A DNA stretch of 64,000 nt from a virus. A program made the translations under genes and the position numbers. Where the stretch lies: the IMG/VR virus record IMGVR_UViG_3300034117_002447, positions 1 through 64,000 of that record, one strand, 5' to 3'. Below the pieces are notes generated by a model. The model saw only the letters and a program-made list of their open reading frames with translations, was not told where the DNA came from and ran no database searches. Below, one piece after another: positions 6,443-58,081 of this stretch (positions are counted from its first letter, which is position 1; each line of letters opens with the position of its first letter).

Positions 6443-6808
6443 TTACTTAGGCATTTTAGCCATGCTAGGCTCAACTTTCTTATTAATAGCATTTCCTTTA
6501 ATAACGATCTTCGCCATTTTAGAATCTACTACTTTATTAGAAGCCGTACCTTTGCTAGTAGGCAATTTAGAAGTTTTAGTATCAACTGTTTTTGTACTAG
6601 TTGTACCTTTACCTTTAGGAAGACTTGCCATTTCAGGTTTAACAGTTTTATTTGAGTTAGAACCTTTACCTTTAGGAAGTTCTTTCATCTCAGCATTAAC
6701 TGACTTGTTAGATTTAGAACCTTTACCCTTAGGAAGATCTGCCATTTCCTGGTTGATCGCTTTTTTCTCTAAAAGAAATTGTGCGTAATTTAAAACGGTG
6801 TTGCTCAT
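6443..6808 (-). CDS. Lys-rich repeat protein with capsid-targeting-like motif
   Basis: 121 residues. The N-terminus VLNYAQFLLEKK matches the capsid-targeting pattern; LLE would be the cut site. The rest is about five 19-residue repeats of the form EM-x-x-LPKGKG-x-x-SNK-x-V-x-x, very rich in Lys and Ser. A small, basic, repetitive protein delivered to the head would resemble the DNA-associated internal proteins of T4 (inference). A late-promoter-like element lies 35 nt upstream and a terminator separates it from gp23, so it is expressed on its own. Confidence 0.8.
   Translation of the reverse strand: MSNTVLNYAQFLLEKKAINQEMADLPKGKGSKSNKSVNAEMKELPKGKGSNSNKTVKPEMASLPKGKGTTSTKTVDTKTSKLPTSKGTASNKVVDSKMAKIVIKGNAINKKVEPSMAKMPK
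6490..6759 (-). repeat. Tandem repeats of 57 nt (19 codons) inside the basic internal-protein gene
   Basis: Four to five in-frame copies encode LPKGKG-type units; approximate boundaries. The copies diverge towards the 3' end (LPTSKG, then IVIKGN), suggesting old duplication. Confidence 0.7.
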
Positions 6809-27926: not shown

Positions 27927-29495
27927 ATGAAGTTTAACGAATTAACCCCAGAAGATGTTTCCAACCTATCTAATCTCTATTGGAATAAGGATTTAAGTTG
28001 GGACACCAGAATGAAAGAATTAAGCTCATTTCTAAATAAGTCCGAGAGAACTGTTCAGAAATGGTTAGCCAAATTAGGAATAACTGAAAGTTCAATACAA
28101 GAATCACCGCAATTAATTAAAGCCCGAGAGCGAAAATTCAATAAAAAGAAGAAACGTTTCATTATCACCTGGGCCCAAAACGATACGCCAGTTCATGAAG
28201 ACTTTGTATCCAATATCGAAAAGTACGCAGATCACATTAATGCAGATATCCACGTAATCGCAGGTCGCTATAAAAACCCAACCTCCGTTTTCTCTGATAA
28301 AAATTACGAAACGTGGTCTAGTCGAATTGAAACATATTTAGATGCAAATAGACATGAGGTTCACAAACACATGTGGATCATGTCAGATATTAAAATTCAG
28401 CCAACCGCAGTTGATCCAATGACTGGTCTTCAGGGAATGACTGGTATTAACTCATGTGTCTTTGGCTCTCCGAAAGTTCATTTAGAAACAGTTCCTGTAC
28501 TTGAAGGAAATCTTCCAAAAATGATGATGACTACTGGAGCATGCACCGTTTCTAACTATACTGATTCTAAATCAGGTAAGAAGGGAGAATTCCACCATAC
28601 TCTTGGTTTTGTAGTCGTTGAAATAAAAGACTCTAATACATTCTTCGCTAGACAAGTAACCGCAACCGACGATGGTAATTTCACTGACCTATACAATCGA
28701 GTTGAATACAATGACGATACTGAATCAAGCGAAATCTCTGAAGTAACTTCAGTAGCTGCCGCGATCCTAGGCGATCTTCACTATGGTCAACACGATCAAC
28801 GTGTAATTAATAAAACCCTAGACCTATTTAAGAAACTTCATCCTGAAAATGTTATTCTACATGACGTATTTGATGGACTTTCAATTAATCATCATGAAAT
28901 AAACGACCCATTCATTCAATATCACAGAGAGCAGGACGGGTCTAACTCATTGAGAAAAGAGGTCGATGCAATGCTAGTCGGGCTTGAGGATTTTAGAGAC
29001 TATAATGTAGCTATCGTTAGAAGTAATCATGACGATTTTCTAGACCGTTGGTTAAAAACCACTGACTGGAGAAAAGCTGCAACCATAAAGAACTCTCTTG
29101 AGTACATGGAATACAGTTCTCTACTGCTTAGGGGAGTTGCACCAAATGGAGTTATTCCGTACCTAATCAACGAGAGATTTCCAAGTTTCAAAACATTAGG
29201 CCGAAGTGATAGCCTTGTCGTAAATGGCTGGGAGCTTGCTCAACACGGAGATGTAGGTTCAAACGGATCACGCGGATCTCTGCTTCAATTTAGAAAATTA
29301 AATACAAAAATTGTAGTTGGACATTACCATTCTCCTGGAAGAAAGGACGGCGCGTTAGCTGTAGGGACTTCAACTAAATTAAGAGTTAACTATAATGTCG
29401 GACCTAGTGGATGGCTCCAGTCACACGTAATCATCCACCATGATGGTAAAGCGCAACATATCAATTTTATAAAAGGAGAATTTACAACTCTGTAG
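27927..29495 (+). CDS. Metallophosphoesterase with N-terminal helix-turn-helix (possibly phage T5 A1-like)
   Basis: 522 residues. Residues 1-50 form a probable HTH (MKELSSFLNKSERTVQKWLA). The calcineurin-like phosphoesterase motifs follow: GDLHYG near 282, HDVFDG near 310, RSNHDDFLDRW near 365, QHGD near 430 and GHYHS near 465. The HTH-plus-phosphoesterase order and NHDDFL recall the T5 A1 DNase family, but that link is by eye only. A single-gene plus-strand unit closed by a terminator. A nuclease or phosphatase role is likely; the substrate is unknown. Confidence 0.75.
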   Translation: MKFNELTPEDVSNLSNLYWNKDLSWDTRMKELSSFLNKSERTVQKWLAKLGITESSIQESPQLIKARERKFNKKKKRFIITWAQNDTPVHEDFVSNIEKYADHINADIHVIAGRYKNPTSVFSDKNYETWSSRIETYLDANRHEVHKHMWIMSDIKIQPTAVDPMTGLQGMTGINSCVFGSPKVHLETVPVLEGNLPKMMMTTGACTVSNYTDSKSGKKGEFHHTLGFVVVEIKDSNTFFARQVTATDDGNFTDLYNRVEYNDDTESSEISEVTSVAAAILGDLHYGQHDQRVINKTLDLFKKLHPENVILHDVFDGLSINHHEINDPFIQYHREQDGSNSLRKEVDAMLVGLEDFRDYNVAIVRSNHDDFLDRWLKTTDWRKAATIKNSLEYMEYSSLLLRGVAPNGVIPYLINERFPSFKTLGRSDSLVVNGWELAQHGDVGSNGSRGSLLQFRKLNTKIVVGHYHSPGRKDGALAVGTSTKLRVNYNVGPSGWLQSHVIIHHDGKAQHINFIKGEFTTL

Positions 29496-29515: not shown

Positions 29516-29541
29516 AAAAAAGCTCCTTATGGAGCTTTTTT
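29516..29541. terminator. Bidirectional terminator
   Basis: Stem AAAAAAGCTCC / GGAGCTTTTTT with TTAT loop between the convergent genes ending at 29495 (+) and 29549 (-). Confidence 0.93.
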
Positions 29542-29548
29542 AGTTTAG

Positions 29549-31417
29549 TTAGTCTTCTATTTGAATTATAGGAGTTGGGTTAGGTTTCTTAATTTCATCT
29601 TCGATCACATTCTCATGACTAATAGATTCAGTTAATGATTCCATTAGATCTTTATTTAAGTTATAGAATTCTGAATGTATGGTGATCGGGGTAGCTTCTT
29701 TAAATGAAGCAAAATCTCTGTTTTTAATTGAGGTCATAATTGATTCTCCAATACTTGTAGTAGGTACTTCAATTAACGAAGTCTCTCTCTTAATATTTAG
29801 GTTTCTTGATCTCTTTTTTGCTAAGTCTAATTGTAGTGCGATATCTTTAATTCGGCTAGGTTCTGCTGCGATGCTAACTGGCTCAAAACCAGGTTTTATT
29901 GCTTTAAGTATAGATTCAATATTTCCATCTCCAACCATTACGTGACCTGCTATATTAGGTTTCTCGTTTGCCGTTAATTTAGATAGGGCGTTATTAATAG
30001 TTTCTTTCTTAAACGGGAAGATTTTTCCTGATTTTCCAGGATGTACGCATATTAATAGAGTAGGAAGTCCGTTTTTCTCAGTAAGGATTTTTGCATTCTT
30101 TAGGTGTCCTTTATGGATCGGTTGAAATTCTGAAATCAGTAAATTAACTTTCTTTACTTTACGCTCTTCATTTTGCGCGATATCGTATGTTTCAAAATAG
30201 CCAGGATTCTTATCGTCTCCTACAAATTCATTGAATGAAGGAAAATAGTTTTCAAATAATTGATCTCCCATTGCAACCTGTCCAAGTTTATCGATTTGTG
30301 CTAATAAATTAGTCTTCATTGCATCAGTGAATAGATTTGAATTTACTTTAACTTTCTTTTTTCTAAAAATATTAATGAATATTCGGTAAATTTCTTTATA
30401 ATTAGGATTCTTTGCAATTATAGTAGTTACGAATGGATCATTAATTAGGTCTAAATTAATATCAAACTCAGGTTTTTGTAGAAACGCTGGGACCTGAATA
30501 TCTAGATCTCCGTATTTGTCGCCGTACTCTTTAATAAACTCAGCAAACAGTCGATTTATCAGAGAAACGTATCTCTCCTCTGGAGTTTCTCCAGCCTCAA
30601 CGAATTCCCTAAGCTCTGATATTCTGTAGCCTTCAATAAAATTCATTAAATCAATAACAATAATCCAAATATAATCATCACTCTTCCTTTGAACTTTCTC
30701 AGGCGATAGCTGTTTTGCATTATCGTAAAAAACGGGATCAACTAATTTCGCTAGTACTGAAGCTTCATTCGCTGTTTTATTATCATCAAAGAATCTAAAT
30801 ACAATTTCGTCAATTGATCTCTCATACTCTTTAGTTTGAGCCGTTTCGTCAACAGTTGGATCCAATACTGCCATAATGTGTTTAGTGAATGAGATCGTTT
30901 TGAACTTTTCAATCAATGAAGCTGCTGGAGTAAACAGGAATTCCTGTATCTTTACCTTTTGTTCGTCATTAAGTTTACCTTGAAATAGAATCGCTGGAGG
31001 ATTTACTCCAAGCTTACCAGCCCATTCGTTTAATTTACCGAAATCATGAATAATCTCAGATAATTGGTAATTTTCATCCAATACCTTAATGTGACTTAGG
31101 GTTAGAGGAGTTTCACGATTCGGAGTATAATCCATTCCAAACACGTAATTTTCAGGAATTGCTGAAATTACATCAGTCCCAAGACTCTCAAAATGTCCAA
31201 TGCCCGGCTCGTAGTAGCGACTAAGAACTCGGTCGATGTAACCAATTTTGCTGTCTTTTTTAAAGAAGTTAAAGTTATTCTGTTGTGCATCTTTCTTGGC
31301 ACCAAAATAGGCACCGTCAATTTTTTCGTTGATGATAACTGTCTTATTTAAAAGACTGTCAAGGAAGTCCTTTCCACGCTTTTCATAAACGTCTCGTAAG
31401 TGTGATAATCCTGCCAT
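29549..31417 (-). CDS. Fusion of a ligase-type nucleotidyltransferase and an NMNAT-like (HxGH) nucleotidyltransferase
   Basis: 622 residues. N-terminal half: NEKIDG with Lys32 is the covalent-AMP motif I (KxDG) of DNA/RNA ligases; VFGMDYTPN resembles motif III, DEIVFRF motif IV, and AKLVDPVF motif V. C-terminal part (about 420-590): LISEFQPIHKGHLKNAKIL carries HxGH of cytidylyl/NMN-adenylyltransferases, and TTSIGESI stands in for the ISSTxxR motif. The two modules use related adenylyl chemistry. It lies downstream of kinase and HAD phosphatase genes, as in an RNA or nucleotide repair operon. A late-like element lies 5 nt before the ATG. Substrates unknown. Confidence 0.75.
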   Translation of the reverse strand: MAGLSHLRDVYEKRGKDFLDSLLNKTVIINEKIDGAYFGAKKDAQQNNFNFFKKDSKIGYIDRVLSRYYEPGIGHFESLGTDVISAIPENYVFGMDYTPNRETPLTLSHIKVLDENYQLSEIIHDFGKLNEWAGKLGVNPPAILFQGKLNDEQKVKIQEFLFTPAASLIEKFKTISFTKHIMAVLDPTVDETAQTKEYERSIDEIVFRFFDDNKTANEASVLAKLVDPVFYDNAKQLSPEKVQRKSDDYIWIIVIDLMNFIEGYRISELREFVEAGETPEERYVSLINRLFAEFIKEYGDKYGDLDIQVPAFLQKPEFDINLDLINDPFVTTIIAKNPNYKEIYRIFINIFRKKKVKVNSNLFTDAMKTNLLAQIDKLGQVAMGDQLFENYFPSFNEFVGDDKNPGYFETYDIAQNEERKVKKVNLLISEFQPIHKGHLKNAKILTEKNGLPTLLICVHPGKSGKIFPFKKETINNALSKLTANEKPNIAGHVMVGDGNIESILKAIKPGFEPVSIAAEPSRIKDIALQLDLAKKRSRNLNIKRETSLIEVPTTSIGESIMTSIKNRDFASFKEATPITIHSEFYNLNKDLMESLTESISHENVIEDEIKKPNPTPIIQIED

Positions 31418-31422
31418 ATCTG

Positions 31423-31432
31423 TTATTTATTA
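31423..31432 (-). promoter_or_regulatory. T4-late-promoter-like element 5 nt from the start codon
   Basis: TAATAAATAA on the minus strand overlaps the stop codon of the kinase gene and is followed by CAGAT and the ATG of the ligase fusion. Confidence 0.5.
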
Positions 31433-32031
31433 GGCTCTATTCCTAATAATGTATAACACTCGGCATTAAATGAATTAACCGAATCTTCATCAAACTTATT
31501 AAAAACGATGCTTAGTTTGTTATTTTTTTCTGAATTTACAAGATCTTTTACACCAAGCTCAATTAGATGAGCCATTAGTTGCTGTTCTTCTAGTGTAGAA
31601 TGTGCTCCATCCCAAGTATCTTTAACTCTGCTAGAATCACCAGTTTGACCTGCAACTGAAACTACTAACGTTTTTGAATTTGCATATAAATTAGTTTTCA
31701 ATAGAGTTAAGAATTCAAGCTCAGCTTTAGTTCGAGTTAATCTTTTTCTTAAGATTGCCCAAGTGTATGCAGATATGATAGCTCGATCAAATATCCAAAT
31801 TTTATCTGAATATTCAGGTCTAAGATTCATTTCCATAATGGTCATGATATTTCCCAAGCTAAAATAATGAAGACTTGGATCAGTGTCTAATCCAACTAAT
31901 CCTAACGTTTTAATATGATCTGCGAAATAGAATTTGTAGTACTCAATTCTTGGATCATTTGCCTTCTCGATAAATTGATTAATTAAAAATGTTTTGCCAC
32001 AGTGCCTGGCGCCTTCTACGAATAATATCAT
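31423..32031 (-). CDS. P-loop kinase (polynucleotide or nucleoside/nucleotide kinase-like)
   Basis: 202 residues. Walker A GARHCGKT is at 7-14. IWIFDRAIISAYTWAI is the D-R-x-x-x-S-x-x-Y block of deoxynucleoside and thymidylate kinases, and may be the equivalent Asp-Arg of polynucleotide kinases. The ATG overlaps the stop of the HAD phosphatase gene. T4 Pnkp joins a kinase and an HAD phosphatase in one chain; here adjacent genes would supply the two activities. Whether it acts on RNA ends or free nucleosides cannot be decided. Confidence 0.7.
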   Translation of the reverse strand: MILFVEGARHCGKTFLINQFIEKANDPRIEYYKFYFADHIKTLGLVGLDTDPSLHYFSLGNIMTIMEMNLRPEYSDKIWIFDRAIISAYTWAILRKRLTRTKAELEFLTLLKTNLYANSKTLVVSVAGQTGDSSRVKDTWDGAHSTLEEQQLMAHLIELGVKDLVNSEKNNKLSIVFNKFDEDSVNSFNAECYTLLGIEPNK

Positions 32032-32567
32032 TGTATGCTTAATTTTTCAATTTGAGATAGTTCAGCAATGGACCTAGCGGTTTCCCATGCGATTGTAATT
32101 ACTCGACTCTTATCAACAAAGATGAATTCAATATCAATCATTAAGCCTGCATCCAAGAATGCTTCTGTGTACTTAATGATTTCCCATAGTGAATCTTCAA
32201 ATATTGTGATTGAATTAGCTTCGTGAGTTCTAATCAATTTAAGGGCAACCTCAGCCTTAGCAGATTCTCTTCCAAGAAAGAACGTTTTATCGAATAAGAT
32301 TCCGCCATTATCTCTAAGTATTTCAAGAACTCTTTCTTGACAGGCTTTAACTCGGTGAGTTATTAAAAAACTAAGAACGTCTGGTTGCGCTTGAGTTTGC
32401 TCGCAAGTATTTAAGATTGCTCGAATGTTGAACTCCGGTGATAAAGACTCAGGCGAGTCAAACCAGTCGTAGGGCGTAATTCCCTTTGCTTCTTTGCATG
32501 TGTAACCTGGCACTCTAAAGAGAGTTTCGTCAAAGTCGAATATGTTAATATGAATATGATTTTCCAT
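32028..32567 (-). CDS. HAD-family phosphatase, RNA-repair (Swiss-Army-Knife)-like
   Basis: 179 residues. The four HAD motifs are visible: FDFDETLF (DxDxT nucleophile and acid), FLITHR, a Lys region near KTFFLGRESAK, and TIFEDS with the acidic pair. The start and spacing resemble the HAD_SAK type of phosphatase known from RNA-repair proteins. It opens the operon phosphatase-kinase-ligase and overlaps the kinase by 4 nt. The predicted role is removal of 3' or cyclic phosphate ends or of nucleotide phosphate (inference). Confidence 0.75.
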   Translation of the reverse strand: MENHIHINIFDFDETLFRVPGYTCKEAKGITPYDWFDSPESLSPEFNIRAILNTCEQTQAQPDVLSFLITHRVKACQERVLEILRDNGGILFDKTFFLGRESAKAEVALKLIRTHEANSITIFEDSLWEIIKYTEAFLDAGLMIDIEFIFVDKSRVITIAWETARSIAELSQIEKLSIQ

Positions 32568-33577: not shown

Positions 33578-35128
33578 TTGTTAACCTTTAAATTATCAAA
33601 CGATCGACAATTTCTTGTACTTGTAAGCCATGACACAAAGGGCGAACTCAAAGATCTTCAATTCTATTTTAAAAAGAGGCAAAAAGGCTATCTTTTTAAT
33701 CGTCTATATAAACGAAAGTTATGGGACGGATACGACCATTTTGTTGTAGTCGATAAAGAAACCGGCGCTCACAAAATCGGAGTCGGCCTTTGGAAAGAAC
33801 TATTTAATTTCAGTAAGAAATTTGAGTATGAGGTTCATATCGAAGATTATGAGAAATTATTTAACTTAAATTTCACAAAGGATCAACTTGCAAAGTTTAC
33901 GTCAGTTATGCTGGATGGTTCAAACATTGAGGCTAGAGACTATCAATTAGAGGCAGTATTTCGTGCCTTAAAATACAAGTTCTGTTCTCTTGAACTTGCA
34001 ACATCTGCTGGTAAAACAATTATTTTCTTTTTATATTTAGCCTTTCTTAAGAGAAAGGGTATTCTCGCCGGAAATGGCAAAAAAGCCCTAATCGTAGTTC
34101 CTAGAGCTGGACTAGTTAGTCAAACTGCTGAAAAATTCACAGACGATTACAATACCGGTCTGATGAGCTTTAACGTAATGACGATCGGCGGAAAGAGTAA
34201 GTACACAGACAAAGCATTTGCTGAATCTGAGATAGTTATTTCAACTTACCAAAGTCTAATTAACAGACCTCCTGAATTCTTCAAGGAATTTAGCATTGTT
34301 TGTATCGATGAGTGTCACACAAGTAGAGGAAACTCTGTTCGGGATATTTTAATACAGTCAGTTAATGTCGAATACAAACTTGGACTTTCCGGAACAATTA
34401 AAATAGAAGAAGACTATTCGGATTTCTTCAGAATTCAAGAATTTCTTGGTCCATTAAGTATGACTCTATCCGCAAGTCACTTAATTGAGAATAACTACTC
34501 ACCTGATGTCTATATTAAAATGGTTTACTTAGAATATCCTAAAACTGAACCTTTTGTTGAGAAATACATGGCTCTGCGAGAAGAAGGAAAGTCCGGTAAA
34601 GAGATGTACGACTCTGAAAAAGCGTTCATTGTCTCTTACGAACCTAGAATTGACTTCATTTCTGCATTCGTTAAGAAACTTGAAGGAAATACTTTGATTC
34701 TATACATAAACGTTAAGGATCAGTACGGCCAGCGTATTTGTGATAAGATTAAGGAATGGAGAGAGCACGTTTATTACATAGACGGTGGTGTTGATAGCTC
34801 AGATCGTGATGAATATCAAAGAATTATGGAAGCTGGTCCTGGCGTTACACTAGTCGCATCATACGGAACTTTCTCTACTGGAATTGACTTAAAAAACGTT
34901 AATCACATTATCTTGGCCGAGAGTTACAAATCTGAGGTAACAATACGTCAATCTATTGGTAGGGGAATGCGTGGATTAAAAGGGAAAGTTAAGGTAACGA
35001 TTTACGATCTAATAGACGATCTTAATGGCTACATCGTTAAGCACGGTCATGCTAGAGAGAAAATTTATAAGAGTCAGAAATTCATTGTGTCAAAACACAA
35101 ATTTGACTTAAATAGATTCGTTAATTAA
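33578..35128 (+). CDS. uvsW: UvsW-like DNA/RNA helicase
   Basis: 516 residues, same architecture as T4 UvsW: an N-terminal double-stranded-nucleic-acid-binding domain with GYLFNRLYKRKLWDGYDHF, then a superfamily 2 core with LATSAGKTII (Walker A), IDECH (DEAH-type box), LGLSGTI (motif III) and, in the second RecA domain, VASYGTFSTGIDL and QSIGRGMRG (motif VI). It resolves R-loops and branched replication intermediates. The start is TTG at 33578 because the only nearby ATG (33574) is in another frame. Its 3' end overlaps the next convergent gene by 4 bp. Confidence 0.95.
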   Translation: MLTFKLSNDRQFLVLVSHDTKGELKDLQFYFKKRQKGYLFNRLYKRKLWDGYDHFVVVDKETGAHKIGVGLWKELFNFSKKFEYEVHIEDYEKLFNLNFTKDQLAKFTSVMLDGSNIEARDYQLEAVFRALKYKFCSLELATSAGKTIIFFLYLAFLKRKGILAGNGKKALIVVPRAGLVSQTAEKFTDDYNTGLMSFNVMTIGGKSKYTDKAFAESEIVISTYQSLINRPPEFFKEFSIVCIDECHTSRGNSVRDILIQSVNVEYKLGLSGTIKIEEDYSDFFRIQEFLGPLSMTLSASHLIENNYSPDVYIKMVYLEYPKTEPFVEKYMALREEGKSGKEMYDSEKAFIVSYEPRIDFISAFVKKLEGNTLILYINVKDQYGQRICDKIKEWREHVYYIDGGVDSSDRDEYQRIMEAGPGVTLVASYGTFSTGIDLKNVNHIILAESYKSEVTIRQSIGRGMRGLKGKVKVTIYDLIDDLNGYIVKHGHAREKIYKSQKFIVSKHKFDLNRFVN

Positions 35129-35925
35129 TAGTCTTCTGAATCAGAGGTCCATACGTAAAAATCAGCTAATGCAGTCTGTCTAAATCTATTAATATCATCT
35201 TTAATTGCATCAAGATCCCTTTCTATTTGATACAATTCATTCAGTTTTTCACGTAACCAGTTTTCAACTTCATCTCGAGCTTCAATAATCTCCTCTGCTT
35301 TAGCAGCAGTCTCTTCATCAATTATTCCAAACTCAATGAGCTCAGCAGTCTCTTCTGGATTTTCAATGATTTGTTTTAGTAACTGAATTGATCCAGCATT
35401 TGCGTCTGCTACTTCTTCTAAGTACATATCGAATTTATCTTCTAGAATTCTTTCCAAGTCAGAATGACTGTCCTCCATTGCTAGTAATAGCCAGCCTCCG
35501 CTTTGGCCCCCTACTCCAACTTTAGTTAACCAGTCATACGTATTCATATAGTCTTCTGAATTAACTTCGTAAGTCTCTTCCATGAATCTACCCCACTGAT
35601 CCCACATTGCTGATTCTAATGACGACTCATCTTCTTCAATTTCCTCAGCTGAATATCCTTTTAGTGCTGCCCATTTCTGTACATCTGGGTATGAGTGGAT
35701 TTTCATGTCTAGTGCATAATGGTCGTTTCTAAAATTTCGACTTTCTCTATTATACCAGTAAGTATCCTCCAATTCATTAACCTGTTTATCAAAGTCTTTA
35801 AGTAGATCCAATATAACAGAATCTTCTGTGAACTTATTTAGGTATTGAGCATAGTGATTTGCGTAATTCCAATCACCTCTTTCTAGAATAAATTGTGAAA
35901 ATGTATGGAGTCTTTTACCTAGCAT
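35125..35925 (-). CDS. Acidic protein with N-terminal capsid-targeting-like motif
   Basis: 266 residues, not recognised. The N-terminus KRLHTFSQFILERG fits the targeting pattern, with ILE as a candidate cut site. The rest is highly acidic and helical, with coiled-coil-like regions (KAEEIIEARDEVENWLREKL) and a WGRFMEETYEVNSEDYMNTYDW block. The start overlaps the preceding gene by 11 nt. Possibly an internal head or core protein (inference). Confidence 0.65.
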   Translation of the reverse strand: MLGKRLHTFSQFILERGDWNYANHYAQYLNKFTEDSVILDLLKDFDKQVNELEDTYWYNRESRNFRNDHYALDMKIHSYPDVQKWAALKGYSAEEIEEDESSLESAMWDQWGRFMEETYEVNSEDYMNTYDWLTKVGVGGQSGGWLLLAMEDSHSDLERILEDKFDMYLEEVADANAGSIQLLKQIIENPEETAELIEFGIIDEETAAKAEEIIEARDEVENWLREKLNELYQIERDLDAIKDDINRFRQTALADFYVWTSDSEDY

Positions 35926-36861: not shown

Positions 36862-38487
36862 ATGTCAAAACAGTTAGAACAGCAAATTAAATCACTAGAT
36901 TTAAAGCAGAATGCAATTAAAATCTTAATTAACTCATTCTATGGTGCCTTCGGTAACCGATATTTCTATTTTCATAATAACGAAATAGCTAAATCTATTA
37001 CTCTACAAGGTCAAGATTTAATTAAATTCTCAATCCGGGCAGTAAATCACTACTTTCAGCACAAGTGGCACCTAGATACTGAACTTCATGAAATTTTAGG
37101 AATTTCAGACAAAAAAGTTTCTCAAATTGAAAAAGAAGCTGCAATTTACACAGATACTGACTCTGTGTATGTCTGTTTTGATTATGCAATTCAGTCAGTA
37201 GAAGGATTAGACTTAGATAATAAAGAGTCTCTTGAGTTCTGTTTGGCAATTAACCGAAACCGATTAAAGGATTATTTTGAACAAGCTTTTGAGAAATACG
37301 CAGTTCATTTCAACACAGACAATCGCCAAAATTTTGAGCTTGAAAATCTTTCTAGTTCAGGAATCTGGCTCGCTAAGAAGAAATACATCTTAAGCGTATC
37401 ATATAAAGATAATAAGCACGAACGACTACTTGATAAAGAATCATTAATCATTAAGGGTCTTGAAGCAATTCAAGCTTCCTATCCAATTTGGGCAAGACAG
37501 CACTTACAAAAGCTGTATTCATATCTTTTAGGAATCGGGTATAACTTGGATCTTGAAGAAGACTTGATTCCGAAATTACAGGCTCTAAAAGACGAGTGTA
37601 ATTCGCTAACGGTCGATGAGATTGCTTTTAACTTCTCAGTTCGAGTTTACGAAGATTACCTAAAGAGCCTAAATCCATTAGTAATGGAGAAAGGAATGCC
37701 GATTTACGGTAGAGCTGCTGCATATCACAATCACGTGATAAAGAAAACCAAAAATCAAAAGTATGCATTGATACGAAGCGGTTCAAAGATTAAATTTTAC
37801 TATGCTTCGCCGAATGAGTATGAATTTGATATTTTTGCGTACGCTCCAGGCTCTTATCCAGAAGAATTCGCAGTGCCTATGGATAGAGATCAACAGTTCT
37901 TCCGATTAATCATTGAGCCAATTAATAAATTATTAGTTGCAATGGGTTATCCGGAATTAACTTCAGCCCTTGTTCGTAAAGTTGAACTTGTTAAATCAAG
38001 AAGCCGTAGCAAAGAATTCACAAACGAAGAAACTTTCCCACTGTATGCAGTTGACTCAAAAACTCTAGCCTATTCTGAAATTCCGGAAAGCTGCCAAGAA
38101 TACATTGGTAATCCAGACAAGCCGGTACCTGCGAATTTATTCCCAGTTTACATTTCAGCAATTTCTAAATTTGGCCTAAATACAGTAATCGTTCCAAAAC
38201 ACGAACTTACTAAGTATCGCGATCGAGTAGCAAAGAAATTAGGAATTGAAGTAGAAGATCCATTTGCAATTCCAGTTGAAGTGATGCAAGAATACTTAAG
38301 ATCGAATGGCTGGAGCGAAATAATCAATACTCCGTCTGGTGGTTCATGGTTGCAAACTGACAAGTACGAAAAAGCTGTTAAAACCGGAAAGGATTACTAC
38401 AAAATGGGATACGATCTTGACAAAGCTTACAAAAACGCAACTAAACCAAAACCTGTAAAGAAGGTAACTATAACTGATGAGAATTGA
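36862..38487 (+). CDS. 43: DNA polymerase gp43-like, C-terminal fragment (split gene)
   Basis: 541 residues covering only the C-terminal part of a family B polymerase. Motif B (KQNAIKILINSFYGAFGN) begins near residue 15, motif C (YTDTDSVYV) is near 96, and thumb-like sequence follows. The 3'-5' exonuclease and motif A (D-x-x-SLYPS) are absent here and nowhere else in the window. Upstream the frame stays open for about 60 nt but runs into a divergent gene, so the missing part cannot be adjacent. Split polymerase genes are known in Rhodothermus phage RM378 and Aeromonas T4-like phages. The primase gene overlaps its end by 11 nt. Confidence 0.92.
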   Translation: MSKQLEQQIKSLDLKQNAIKILINSFYGAFGNRYFYFHNNEIAKSITLQGQDLIKFSIRAVNHYFQHKWHLDTELHEILGISDKKVSQIEKEAAIYTDTDSVYVCFDYAIQSVEGLDLDNKESLEFCLAINRNRLKDYFEQAFEKYAVHFNTDNRQNFELENLSSSGIWLAKKKYILSVSYKDNKHERLLDKESLIIKGLEAIQASYPIWARQHLQKLYSYLLGIGYNLDLEEDLIPKLQALKDECNSLTVDEIAFNFSVRVYEDYLKSLNPLVMEKGMPIYGRAAAYHNHVIKKTKNQKYALIRSGSKIKFYYASPNEYEFDIFAYAPGSYPEEFAVPMDRDQQFFRLIIEPINKLLVAMGYPELTSALVRKVELVKSRSRSKEFTNEETFPLYAVDSKTLAYSEIPESCQEYIGNPDKPVPANLFPVYISAISKFGLNTVIVPKHELTKYRDRVAKKLGIEVEDPFAIPVEVMQEYLRSNGWSEIINTPSGGSWLQTDKYEKAVKTGKDYYKMGYDLDKAYKNATKPKPVKKVTITDEN

Positions 38488-54487: not shown

Positions 54488-55384
54488 TTAAGCGATTGCT
54501 TTAAGTGAAATAGGTTCAGCAGTTCTCTTATCGTATACGTAAAGTGAATCTGCGATTTTTGTCTTTACCCAGTCCCCATTTTCTCCAATTGGGAGCTCGA
54601 CTGTATCTCCAGGATTTAGAGTTTTGGCAATCTTTCTGCCATCCGGTAAAATAATTCCCAATTTCAAGAATCGGTCTTCTCTAAAAGAATCACGGTTTAG
54701 GACACCATCAATTGTGCATTCAGTGAACTCTTTTAGGAATGGAATAAACACCTTAATTTTTCTACCAGCTGCGACTGAGTATTGTTGTTCTCCGCTAATA
54801 ACTGCTGGAGTATAGGCAGCTCTTCTTTCTGGGATTACTTGACCGTCTTCTGTAAGTTCAAATACGCTATTTACTGTCTCTTCTGGTAATTCATATACGG
54901 TAACTGATCCAGTTTTACCCTTTCTAGAAAGATGATTTTCCAAATCCATTTGAATATCTTTATGAGACATTCTGTGAGGGAGCACCTTGATTGTTGTAAG
55001 AACATCATCTGAAATATAGGCGAAAACTCGCTCGCCGATGTGAATTTTTTCAATCTCTCCACTAAATGATTTTACAGACATTGTTACTGGATAAGAGGTA
55101 CCCTCTATCTTTAAGAATGGTGCAACTACTGGTAGGGCTTTATGGCCTGATGGAAATTGAGTTCTCTCAATATGGTCTTGGCTCTTTTTAAATTCAGATT
55201 TAATAGCATCAATGAGTTGAGAGTAGACTTCGTTTATTTCAAATCCAGCTTCTCGAATAAATTGTCTCGCTGGCTTAGGTAAGTTAATTGACTCTAGATT
55301 ATAGATTCGTTGATCTATACGACCCTCTCCGTGAGAAGAGATTCGGGCTTCAGTTATGAATTGTGTAAATTTAAGTAACTTCAA
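54488..55384 (-). CDS. Putative head protein with strong capsid-targeting-like N-terminus
   Basis: 298 residues. The N-terminus LLKFTQFITEARIS is the closest of all to the T4 internal-protein leader (MKTYQEFIAEA), with ITE as predicted cut. The start is TTG at 55384; an ATG eleven bases upstream is out of frame, and the motif supports the TTG. The remainder is an unrecognised alpha/beta protein (IKVFIPFLKEFTECTIDGVL, DTVELPIGENGDWVKTKI). A TATAAATAA element lies 22 nt upstream. Confidence 0.7.
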   Translation of the reverse strand: MKLLKFTQFITEARISSHGEGRIDQRIYNLESINLPKPARQFIREAGFEINEVYSQLIDAIKSEFKKSQDHIERTQFPSGHKALPVVAPFLKIEGTSYPVTMSVKSFSGEIEKIHIGERVFAYISDDVLTTIKVLPHRMSHKDIQMDLENHLSRKGKTGSVTVYELPEETVNSVFELTEDGQVIPERRAAYTPAVISGEQQYSVAAGRKIKVFIPFLKEFTECTIDGVLNRDSFREDRFLKLGIILPDGRKIAKTLNPGDTVELPIGENGDWVKTKIADSLYVYDKRTAEPISLKAIA

Positions 55385-56749: not shown

Positions 56750-58081
56750 TTATTCTTTTCTTTTTGCTAATTTTCTTTTAACTGCTTCCCGAGTCGACTC
56801 CATTTTCTTGGCATAACTTGGATTTTTTCGCTTGTTAAAATTAATTTGTTGATTTAGCGATCCAGTAATCTTTTGCATGTTACCACCTCTTGTTCTGATT
56901 AACCAATCCGCTAATTTATTAACTCCAAGGTCTCTGAATTTTCCATTTGCATCAGGTGCATCAGAATCGTGCCATTTAAGTTTTTTCTTTTCTGAAATTT
57001 CATCTTCATCAGCTTCATCATCTTCTTCGTCATCCCATCTGTGATACTGTTCCTCAATTGCCTTATTTAAAAGATCTTGAATTTTGTCGTACATTCCAAG
57101 CGAGTCTTCGAAACCAGTTACGGCACTCATAAAGAGTTCAATATCTTCAGCTATCTCATTAGACTTCATTGAAACTGGATCTCCATTTTGGAATAGGTCA
57201 GACCATTCATAGTCTTCAAGTTCAGCATCTTCGTAAAGTCCGATATCTTTTTGTGCGACACTAACTGACGACTTAACAGTTTCATCGATAAAGTTTATTC
57301 TGACTTCAAAATCAGTCCATACGTCTCTTTCTATATCCGGATATTCGGATGAATCTATTCCGTAATCATCTATAGATTGATTGAACTGGCCTGAAACAAT
57401 AACGATTTGATCTTCTGCAGTTGCTCCATTGACTAGTTCTGCGATTGCATCAGTGTCAACTCCACCAAAACCCATTGCTCTTAGTTCTGCAGCTTCTTCA
57501 TCAGATAAGTTCTCAATTATGAATTTTCCTTTTGTGTTAGGCTCATCAGAATCATGCCATTTAAGTTTCTTCTTTTCTGATACTTCTCCAAGACGTCTAT
57601 CGATTATGTCATTTACTATATCGACTGCCATGTCTACAAACATGCCTTCGTATTCAATTCGCTGCAAAATCTGAGTTAACTCATCAGCGATTCCTTGAGA
57701 ATCGTGATTTTCTGAATCCAGTTTAAAATCAACTTCATACGCATTACCTGCACCGTCAAAATCAATCCCAGAATTTAAGACTGCCACTTGTACTTTAGAT
57801 TTCATTGTCTCAAAGTCGAAATCAACATAGTACTGAACAAGGAACACGCTATCTAATTCAGCAGCCTCTGCTCTTTCTGGATCAAGTCCTAAATCATCAG
57901 CTGTCATATCAAATCCCAAATCGAAACCTAATGTCGTGTCGGTCTTCTCCTCTGGGTTGTATTCGGCCATTAATCCTTGAATTTCATCCGTGTCAATCTT
58001 TGAATTAAAACCTAATGCTGCTAATTCTTCAGCATCATCAGTATTTTCATTAACGAATTGTGTAAATCGTTTAAGTCTCAT
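56750..58081 (-). CDS. Duplicated-domain acidic protein with capsid-targeting-like N-terminus
   Basis: 443 residues. The N-terminus RLKRFTQFVNENTD is a clear targeting motif. The two halves are a duplicated domain: each starts with AAEL/EELAALGF, has an acidic beta region, and ends with EKKKLKWHDSD followed by GKF. The C-terminal 70 residues (NKLADWLIRTRGGNMQKITG, NFNKRKNPSYAKKMESTREA) form a basic domain. It resembles proteins seen in T4-like phages. Probably packaged by motif; function unknown. It starts on the neighbour's stop (ATGA-type overlap). Confidence 0.7.
   Translation of the reverse strand: MRLKRFTQFVNENTDDAEELAALGFNSKIDTDEIQGLMAEYNPEEKTDTTLGFDLGFDMTADDLGLDPERAEAAELDSVFLVQYYVDFDFETMKSKVQVAVLNSGIDFDGAGNAYEVDFKLDSENHDSQGIADELTQILQRIEYEGMFVDMAVDIVNDIIDRRLGEVSEKKKLKWHDSDEPNTKGKFIIENLSDEEAAELRAMGFGGVDTDAIAELVNGATAEDQIVIVSGQFNQSIDDYGIDSSEYPDIERDVWTDFEVRINFIDETVKSSVSVAQKDIGLYEDAELEDYEWSDLFQNGDPVSMKSNEIAEDIELFMSAVTGFEDSLGMYDKIQDLLNKAIEEQYHRWDDEEDDEADEDEISEKKKLKWHDSDAPDANGKFRDLGVNKLADWLIRTRGGNMQKITGSLNQQINFNKRKNPSYAKKMESTREAVKRKLAKRKE

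Follow-up and report, generated by a model that had tools for sequence, protein, structure and literature searches.

A three-gene operon of a phosphatase, a kinase and a ligase-fold/HIGH fusion protein in a large T4-related phage, and its possible role in polynucleotide end repair

Described systems and the organization of the locus

Phage T4 provides a phosphatase, a kinase and a ligase in one phage, the first two as Pnkp, in which a Pnk-type kinase domain is fused to a HAD phosphatase, and the third as Rnl1. In jumbo phages, members of the SAK HAD family have been described as standalone RNA-repair phosphatases (PMC7824862). Genes for a DUF6267 protein and a HIGH cytidyltransferase lie next to each other in many cyanophages, and further phages carry NAD-synthesis fusions of the NadR or NadM type. 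For SAK repair proteins, the key reference is Burroughs and Aravind (2016).

The locus described here lies in a window of 64,000 nucleotides, the first part of the 271-kb virus record IMGVR_UViG_3300034117_002447. Three open reading frames are present on the minus strand, to which all coding coordinates of the operon refer: a gene for a HAD phosphatase of the SAK type (179 aa; 32028..32567), a gene for a P-loop kinase (202 aa; 31423..32031) and a gene for a fusion protein (622 aa; 29549..31417) composed of an RNA-ligase-fold nucleotidyltransferase, a helical middle and a HIGH (NMNAT-like) domain. The HAD and kinase genes overlap by 4 nt (ATGA, 32028–32031), an overlap seen again in the listed loci of relatives, and the ATG of the fusion gene follows the kinase stop after a gap of 5 nt, in agreement with the preliminary description of a translationally linked unit. 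A symmetrical intrinsic terminator (29516..29541; 11-bp stem, T tails) ends the operon, and plus-strand genes flank the three-gene unit on either side. The neighbours are not limited to genes of nucleotide metabolism; the gene that adjoins the operon, in convergent orientation (27927–29495), encodes a large protein like a metallophosphoesterase, a 'DNA transfer protein' by its match to phrog_1745 (E 1e-148).

The portal protein of the record is nearest to those of metagenomic huge phages and Prevotella Lak phages. A Shine-Dalgarno sequence is found at 2 of the 57 gene starts in the window (background about 9%) and the leaders are mostly A-rich, which together indicate a host of the Bacteroidota type, since non-use of Shine-Dalgarno sequences is usual in that phylum. 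A relative with 74% identity was binned with a Bacteroidetes MAG, and the host of this large, T4-related phage is probably a member of the Bacteroidota.

A late-type promoter had been proposed directly before the fusion gene. The element present there is AATAAATA (31431–31424), not TATAAATA; it begins 14 nt before the fusion ATG and coincides with the last kinase codons, Asn-Lys-stop. In the window, similar NATAAATA sites are found 24–44 nt before gene starts and are enriched there relative to random positions, a control under which A-rich leaders alone may account for the enrichment. As most leaders are A-rich at the same place and Shine-Dalgarno sequences are not used, AATAAATA is explained more simply, probably as an A-rich translation leader together with the kinase's Asn-Lys-stop, and the promoter reading was set aside.

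Several further features of the record were observed. The DNA polymerase gene (window 36862–38487) matches the C-terminal part only of a phage polymerase profile (500–838 of 856), an exonuclease-domain match lies near the opposite end of the record (G000:C1:263753-264106), and the polymerase of this phage seems to be split. Tags resembling KRFxQFVNE, like the capsid-targeting sequences of T4, occur at the N-termini of products encoded at window positions 6443–6808, 35125–35925, 54488–55384 and 56750–58081, and also in L082-L091; judged by these tags, the proteins are candidate injected internal proteins, from which the prohead protease would cut the tag. An RNA ligase, an HD protein and a CCA-adding enzyme are encoded together near a large tRNA array (L082:687-3200; G000:C1 about 63687–66200), and a tmRNA with a readable tag peptide is located at L088:3300-3666 (G000:C1 about 186300–186666; Rfam RF00023, 129 bits).

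The fusion family and its ligase half

Scanning IMG/VR with profiles of the fusion, kinase and HAD proteins returned 68 distinct proteins of the fusion family. For 39 of these, down to about 40% identity, the HAD and kinase genes are at the same locus in the same gene order and the ligase motifs are the same, a conservation that far exceeds chance; kinase or HAD loci without the fusion, or lacking one of the three genes, are all cut by a contig end. The operon-bearing proteins form one clade (40 rows including the contig-cut L034 and L046; support 100/99) and mostly span 602–1013 aa. A second group, clade B, comprises 27 distinct proteins of about 440 aa that have neither the HIGH domain nor the operon and retain the ligase and helical core. 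Proteins of both kinds are represented in BFVD, A0A6J5NWC5 having the architecture of the window protein and A0A8D9CFY4 the size of clade B members.

In many lineages a fourth small gene is inserted between those for the kinase and the fusion, and its product starts with MxxFxxFLNE, which we take to be like the T4 capsid-targeting tag. Relatives of 964–1013 aa have an extra C-terminal domain of ~360 aa (L027:6001-9012, L032:6001-8895, L043, L123, L125 and L126) that matches no Pfam family above cut-off; in L027 and L043 it contains a GDI..IEVK signature that recalls PD-(D/E)xK nucleases.

When searched alone against Pfam, PHROGs, NCBIfam and the PDB, the window proteins gave sub-threshold matches only, so relatives were required for family assignment. 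In the single-sequence Pfam search the window fusion protein has no match to RNA_ligase (PF09414), the cut-off of which (27) is passed by its relatives L027, L028, L037 and L041 with 27.2–34.2 bits; the match in relatives is full length, covering profile positions 1–170 of 171. The window fusion protein was modelled from a 33-row alignment (pLDDT 77), and the best PDB match of the model is adenylated T4 Rnl2 (PDB code: 2hvq; E 8.7e-8 over 374 columns). On the basis of the relatives' Pfam scores and this match, the N-terminal half of the fusion (residues 1–235; 30713..31417) has the RNA-ligase fold. The proposed union of a ligase fold with a HIGH domain is thus borne out, and the motifs first noticed in the sequence (K32-x-D-G, DEIVFRF, AKLVDP and H435-K-G-H438) are all contained in the 622-aa protein.

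Motif I (E31-K32-I-D34-G35; 31313..31327) provides the predicted AMP-acceptor lysine, K32, and follows the pattern EKx[DE]G in 39/39 operon-bearing members and in L034, whereas the lysine is absent in 28/28 family members without the operon. This contrast suggests that the lysine may be required because of the operon; it corresponds to a single change on the tree and is accordingly suggestive, not proof. An early alignment with few relatives had given the impression that the lysine is dispensable, which was abandoned when wider sampling revealed that its loss accompanies loss of the operon. Motif V (AKLVDP, residues 223–228; 30734..30751) has the consensus AK[LMI][VI]DP in all 39 operon-bearing fusions, with K224, D227 and P228 invariant in operon-bearing members. 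In the motif IV region (DEIVFRF, residues 203–209; 30791..30811) the canonical EG is replaced by DE. Position 203 is Glu in 19/25, Asp in 5/25 and Ser in 1/25 of the non-redundant operon-bearing members, and the motif reads EG or ET in the majority of sister lineages. The clade of the window protein has DE, SE or EE instead and, from these residues, may have lost an essential metal-binding Glu. Because motif IV is altered, ligase activity of the window's own protein is uncertain.

The damaged motif IV, together with the retention of the ligase and helical core in the lysine-less and HIGH-less clade B, would be accommodated if the fusion were a non-catalytic scaffold in which this core is kept for binding nucleic acid or protein. 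A scaffold would not need K32 and K224, and both are invariant in all operon-bearing members to about 40% identity, making such a role very unlikely.

Helical middle and HIGH domain

The ligase domain is followed by a helical middle domain, defined by the secondary structure of the model (residues 236–420; 30158..30712) and common to clade B, and then by the HIGH/NMNAT-like domain (residues 421–598; 29624..30157). For the latter, Foldseek matches include NaMNAT (PDB code: 8aih; 2.8e-5), NadM (PDB code: 2qjo; 1.6e-4) and also FAD synthetase, and the Pfam cut-off of CTP_transf_like is passed by the relatives L044 and L017. The fold is that of an NMN/NaMN adenylyltransferase; of the motifs HxGH and ISSTxxR, the window protein has only the first. 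In the first of these (H435-K-G-H438; 30104..30115), H438 is the sole invariant residue among operon-bearing members, position 435 being His in 12/25, Thr in 10/25 and Ser in 3/25; several lineages that still have the HAD, the kinase and the ligase lysine read TNSH or SKEH. None of the operon-bearing members has the second motif, ISSTxxR, in place of which the window protein reads SIGESIM. Overall, 45/235 positions are invariant in the ligase part versus 7/170 in the HIGH part. An intact pair of HIGH motifs is confined to L021/L044 (LR756500), one lineage among the 68 family proteins, in which the ligase lysine is lost. Just upstream of this HIGH-intact relative, a separate gene (L021:4704-5969) encodes a ligase-like protein (KLDG, SEGIVF, RYKLTG) with a capsid-targeting-like N-terminus.

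From these alignments, the two nucleotidyltransferase sites appear to decay in opposite lineages. With ISSTxxR lost and HxGH often broken in addition, the operon is unlikely to make NAD as a conserved function, and the earlier suggestion that the fusion could make NAD-type dinucleotides is not supported as a conserved property of the family. The corresponding rival reading is nucleotide or NAD salvage, in which a NadR-like kinase would make NMN from nicotinamide riboside and the HIGH domain would adenylate NMN to NAD, while the HAD would act as a regulator resembling 5'-nucleotidases and the dinucleotide would be used or sensed by the ligase-fold domain. It draws on the NadR kinase domain, which ranks with the kinase's closest structural matches (PDB code: 6gye; TM 0.65), on the likeness of the HIGH domain to NaMNAT and NadM, and on weak likeness of some of the HADs to 5'-nucleotidases. 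We nevertheless regard it as rather unlikely: the HIGH motifs fail as described even where the HAD and kinase are intact, the feature that is conserved is the ligase lysine, and a nicotinamide phosphoribosyltransferase (NadV) was looked for in the record and not found.

A further comparison arises from BFVD, where the fusion model finds a protein of Synechococcus phage S-PM2. S-PM2d138 is a DUF6267 domain (KWDG..PEGFVAI..KLVDR) fused to a HIGH domain; at LN828717 93485-95260 (L096:43485-45260) and in many cyanophages, DUF6267 with ligase-like motifs (KWDG, EGFV, KLVDR) is fused to or adjoins a HIGH cytidyltransferase. DUF6267 is not named in the literature searched. At least 80% of the fused S-PM2d138 query is covered at one place in 201 of 547 matching phage records, mostly by adjacent genes. 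Taken with the separate KLDG..SEGIVF gene in LR756500, this would fit a module in which a ligase-like and a HIGH enzyme act in turn, by a so far undescribed route, on a small molecule, a protein or a nucleic-acid end, the HAD and kinase preparing the substrate. The window fusion has no PF19782 match, hhalign aligning the HIGH part only (E 2e-4), and as the profiles join only the HIGH parts, the ligase parts need not share an ancestor. No HAD/kinase pair was present in the cyanophage loci inspected, and the HIGH domain decays in operon-bearing members. On balance such a module is quite unlikely to explain the operon.

A broader version is that ligase-like and HIGH proteins constitute an unrecognised two-enzyme module across T4-related phages, taking in this operon, huge phages of the LR756500 type and the cyanophage DUF6267 and cytidyltransferase pair. 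An activated dinucleotide or NDP-compound made by the HIGH enzyme would be transferred by the ligase-like protein to nucleic-acid ends or protein, and the HAD/kinase branch would have switched to direct end repair with loss of HIGH activity. We consider this a long shot. The link of the operon to so common a pair makes the cyanophage genes testable too, and the opposite decay of the two sites in sister lineages offers a clean comparison for the role of each half.

Phosphatase, kinase and polynucleotide end repair

The HAD protein of the window scores 12.5 bits against HAD_SAK_1, below the cut-off of 25.6, and its relatives L139, L192 and L145 score 31.5, 31.0 and 33.0 bits, respectively. The catalytic residues DxD, K and ED are invariant in 15 members; in the window protein these are contained in DFDETLF (32517–32537), K104 and E124-D125. 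In the kinase, the Walker A motif (31990–32013) and a DR motif (D82-R83; 31783–31788) are both invariant. The kinase model (pLDDT 89) finds, as best PDB matches by Foldseek, TMP, adenylate and deoxynucleoside kinases besides that of NadR, and no Pnk is among the best 50 structural matches. Searches with the kinase and HAD matched no informative annotated phages.

The best explanation, to which we give about even credence, is that the three genes form an operon for the repair of polynucleotide ends, most probably of RNA, with tRNAs cut by host anticodon nucleases as an example of the substrate. The SAK-type HAD would clear 3'-side ends of their terminal phosphate. The 5' phosphate would come from the P-loop kinase, which might instead supply a nucleotide co-substrate, and the ligase-fold domain would accept AMP on Lys32 and then seal the ends. 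The HIGH domain would be a relic, or an accessory for nucleotide or RNA binding or for dimerisation, and as an enzyme would not be needed across the family. The RNA substrate, the order of the steps and the substrate of the kinase are what we infer, as is ligation by the window's own protein.

End repair is favoured by the presence of relatives of the fusion in RNA_ligase and of the HAD in HAD_SAK_1, both above curated cut-offs, by the T4 Rnl2 match of the fusion model, by the co-occurrence of HAD, kinase and fusion wherever a contig end does not cut the locus, by the constancy of the ligase lysines in operon-bearing fusions and the stronger conservation of the ligase part, and by the 26 tRNAs of the phage. 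It is opposed by the altered motif IV of the window clade, by a kinase that resembles nucleoside, NMP or NR kinases and not Pnk, by the single origin of the lysine contrast and by the sub-threshold Pfam scores of the window's own proteins. The link to RNA repair, offered as inference in the preliminary description, is strengthened for the ligase and phosphatase through their relatives; a kinase comparable to that of T4 Pnkp is not supported. The operon need not be the RNA repair of this phage, as a second, canonical RNA ligase with an OB domain (L082:687-1889; PF09414, 57 bits) is encoded at about 64 kb, next to the gene for a CCA-adding enzyme. Since one jumbo phage can have several RNA ligases (PMC7824862), a second repair unit would not be odd. 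A search of the record for PF09511 (Rnl1) gave no match, and the control also matched nowhere.

If the operon does serve end repair, huge Bacteroidota phages would have a second compact kit besides the canonical RNA ligase and tRNA set, and the pairing of a SAK phosphatase with a non-Pnk kinase would add to the known ways in which phages counter host defences that cut RNA. Compared with known systems, the fusion resembles T4 Rnl2 and PF09414 in its fold, KxDG motif I and AK-containing motif V, and its sister lineages have the canonical motif IV EG; it differs in the altered motif IV of the window clade, in a C-terminal half of helical domain plus HIGH, and in its HAD and kinase neighbours. Where T4 combines Pnkp and Rnl1, the phosphatase, kinase and ligase parts are here in one operon, with separate phosphatase and kinase genes, a TMPK/NadR-like kinase, a SAK-type HAD and an Rnl2-fold ligase. 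The HAD belongs to HAD_SAK_1 through its relatives and is standalone as in jumbo phages, but the window copy is divergent and there is no fusion to other SAK domains. As in the cyanophage DUF6267 and cytidyltransferase pair, a KxDG ligase-like domain is fused to or adjoins HIGH, at similar length, although the DUF6267 sequence and the position of the helical insert differ, HIGH is intact there and no HAD or kinase was seen. The HIGH domain and a P-loop kinase resembling that of NadR recall the phage NadR/NadM fusions, from which the locus departs in its separate kinase gene, degenerate HIGH and a ligase as partner in place of Nudix or kinase. We see this locus as a novel form of a known type of phage repair system.
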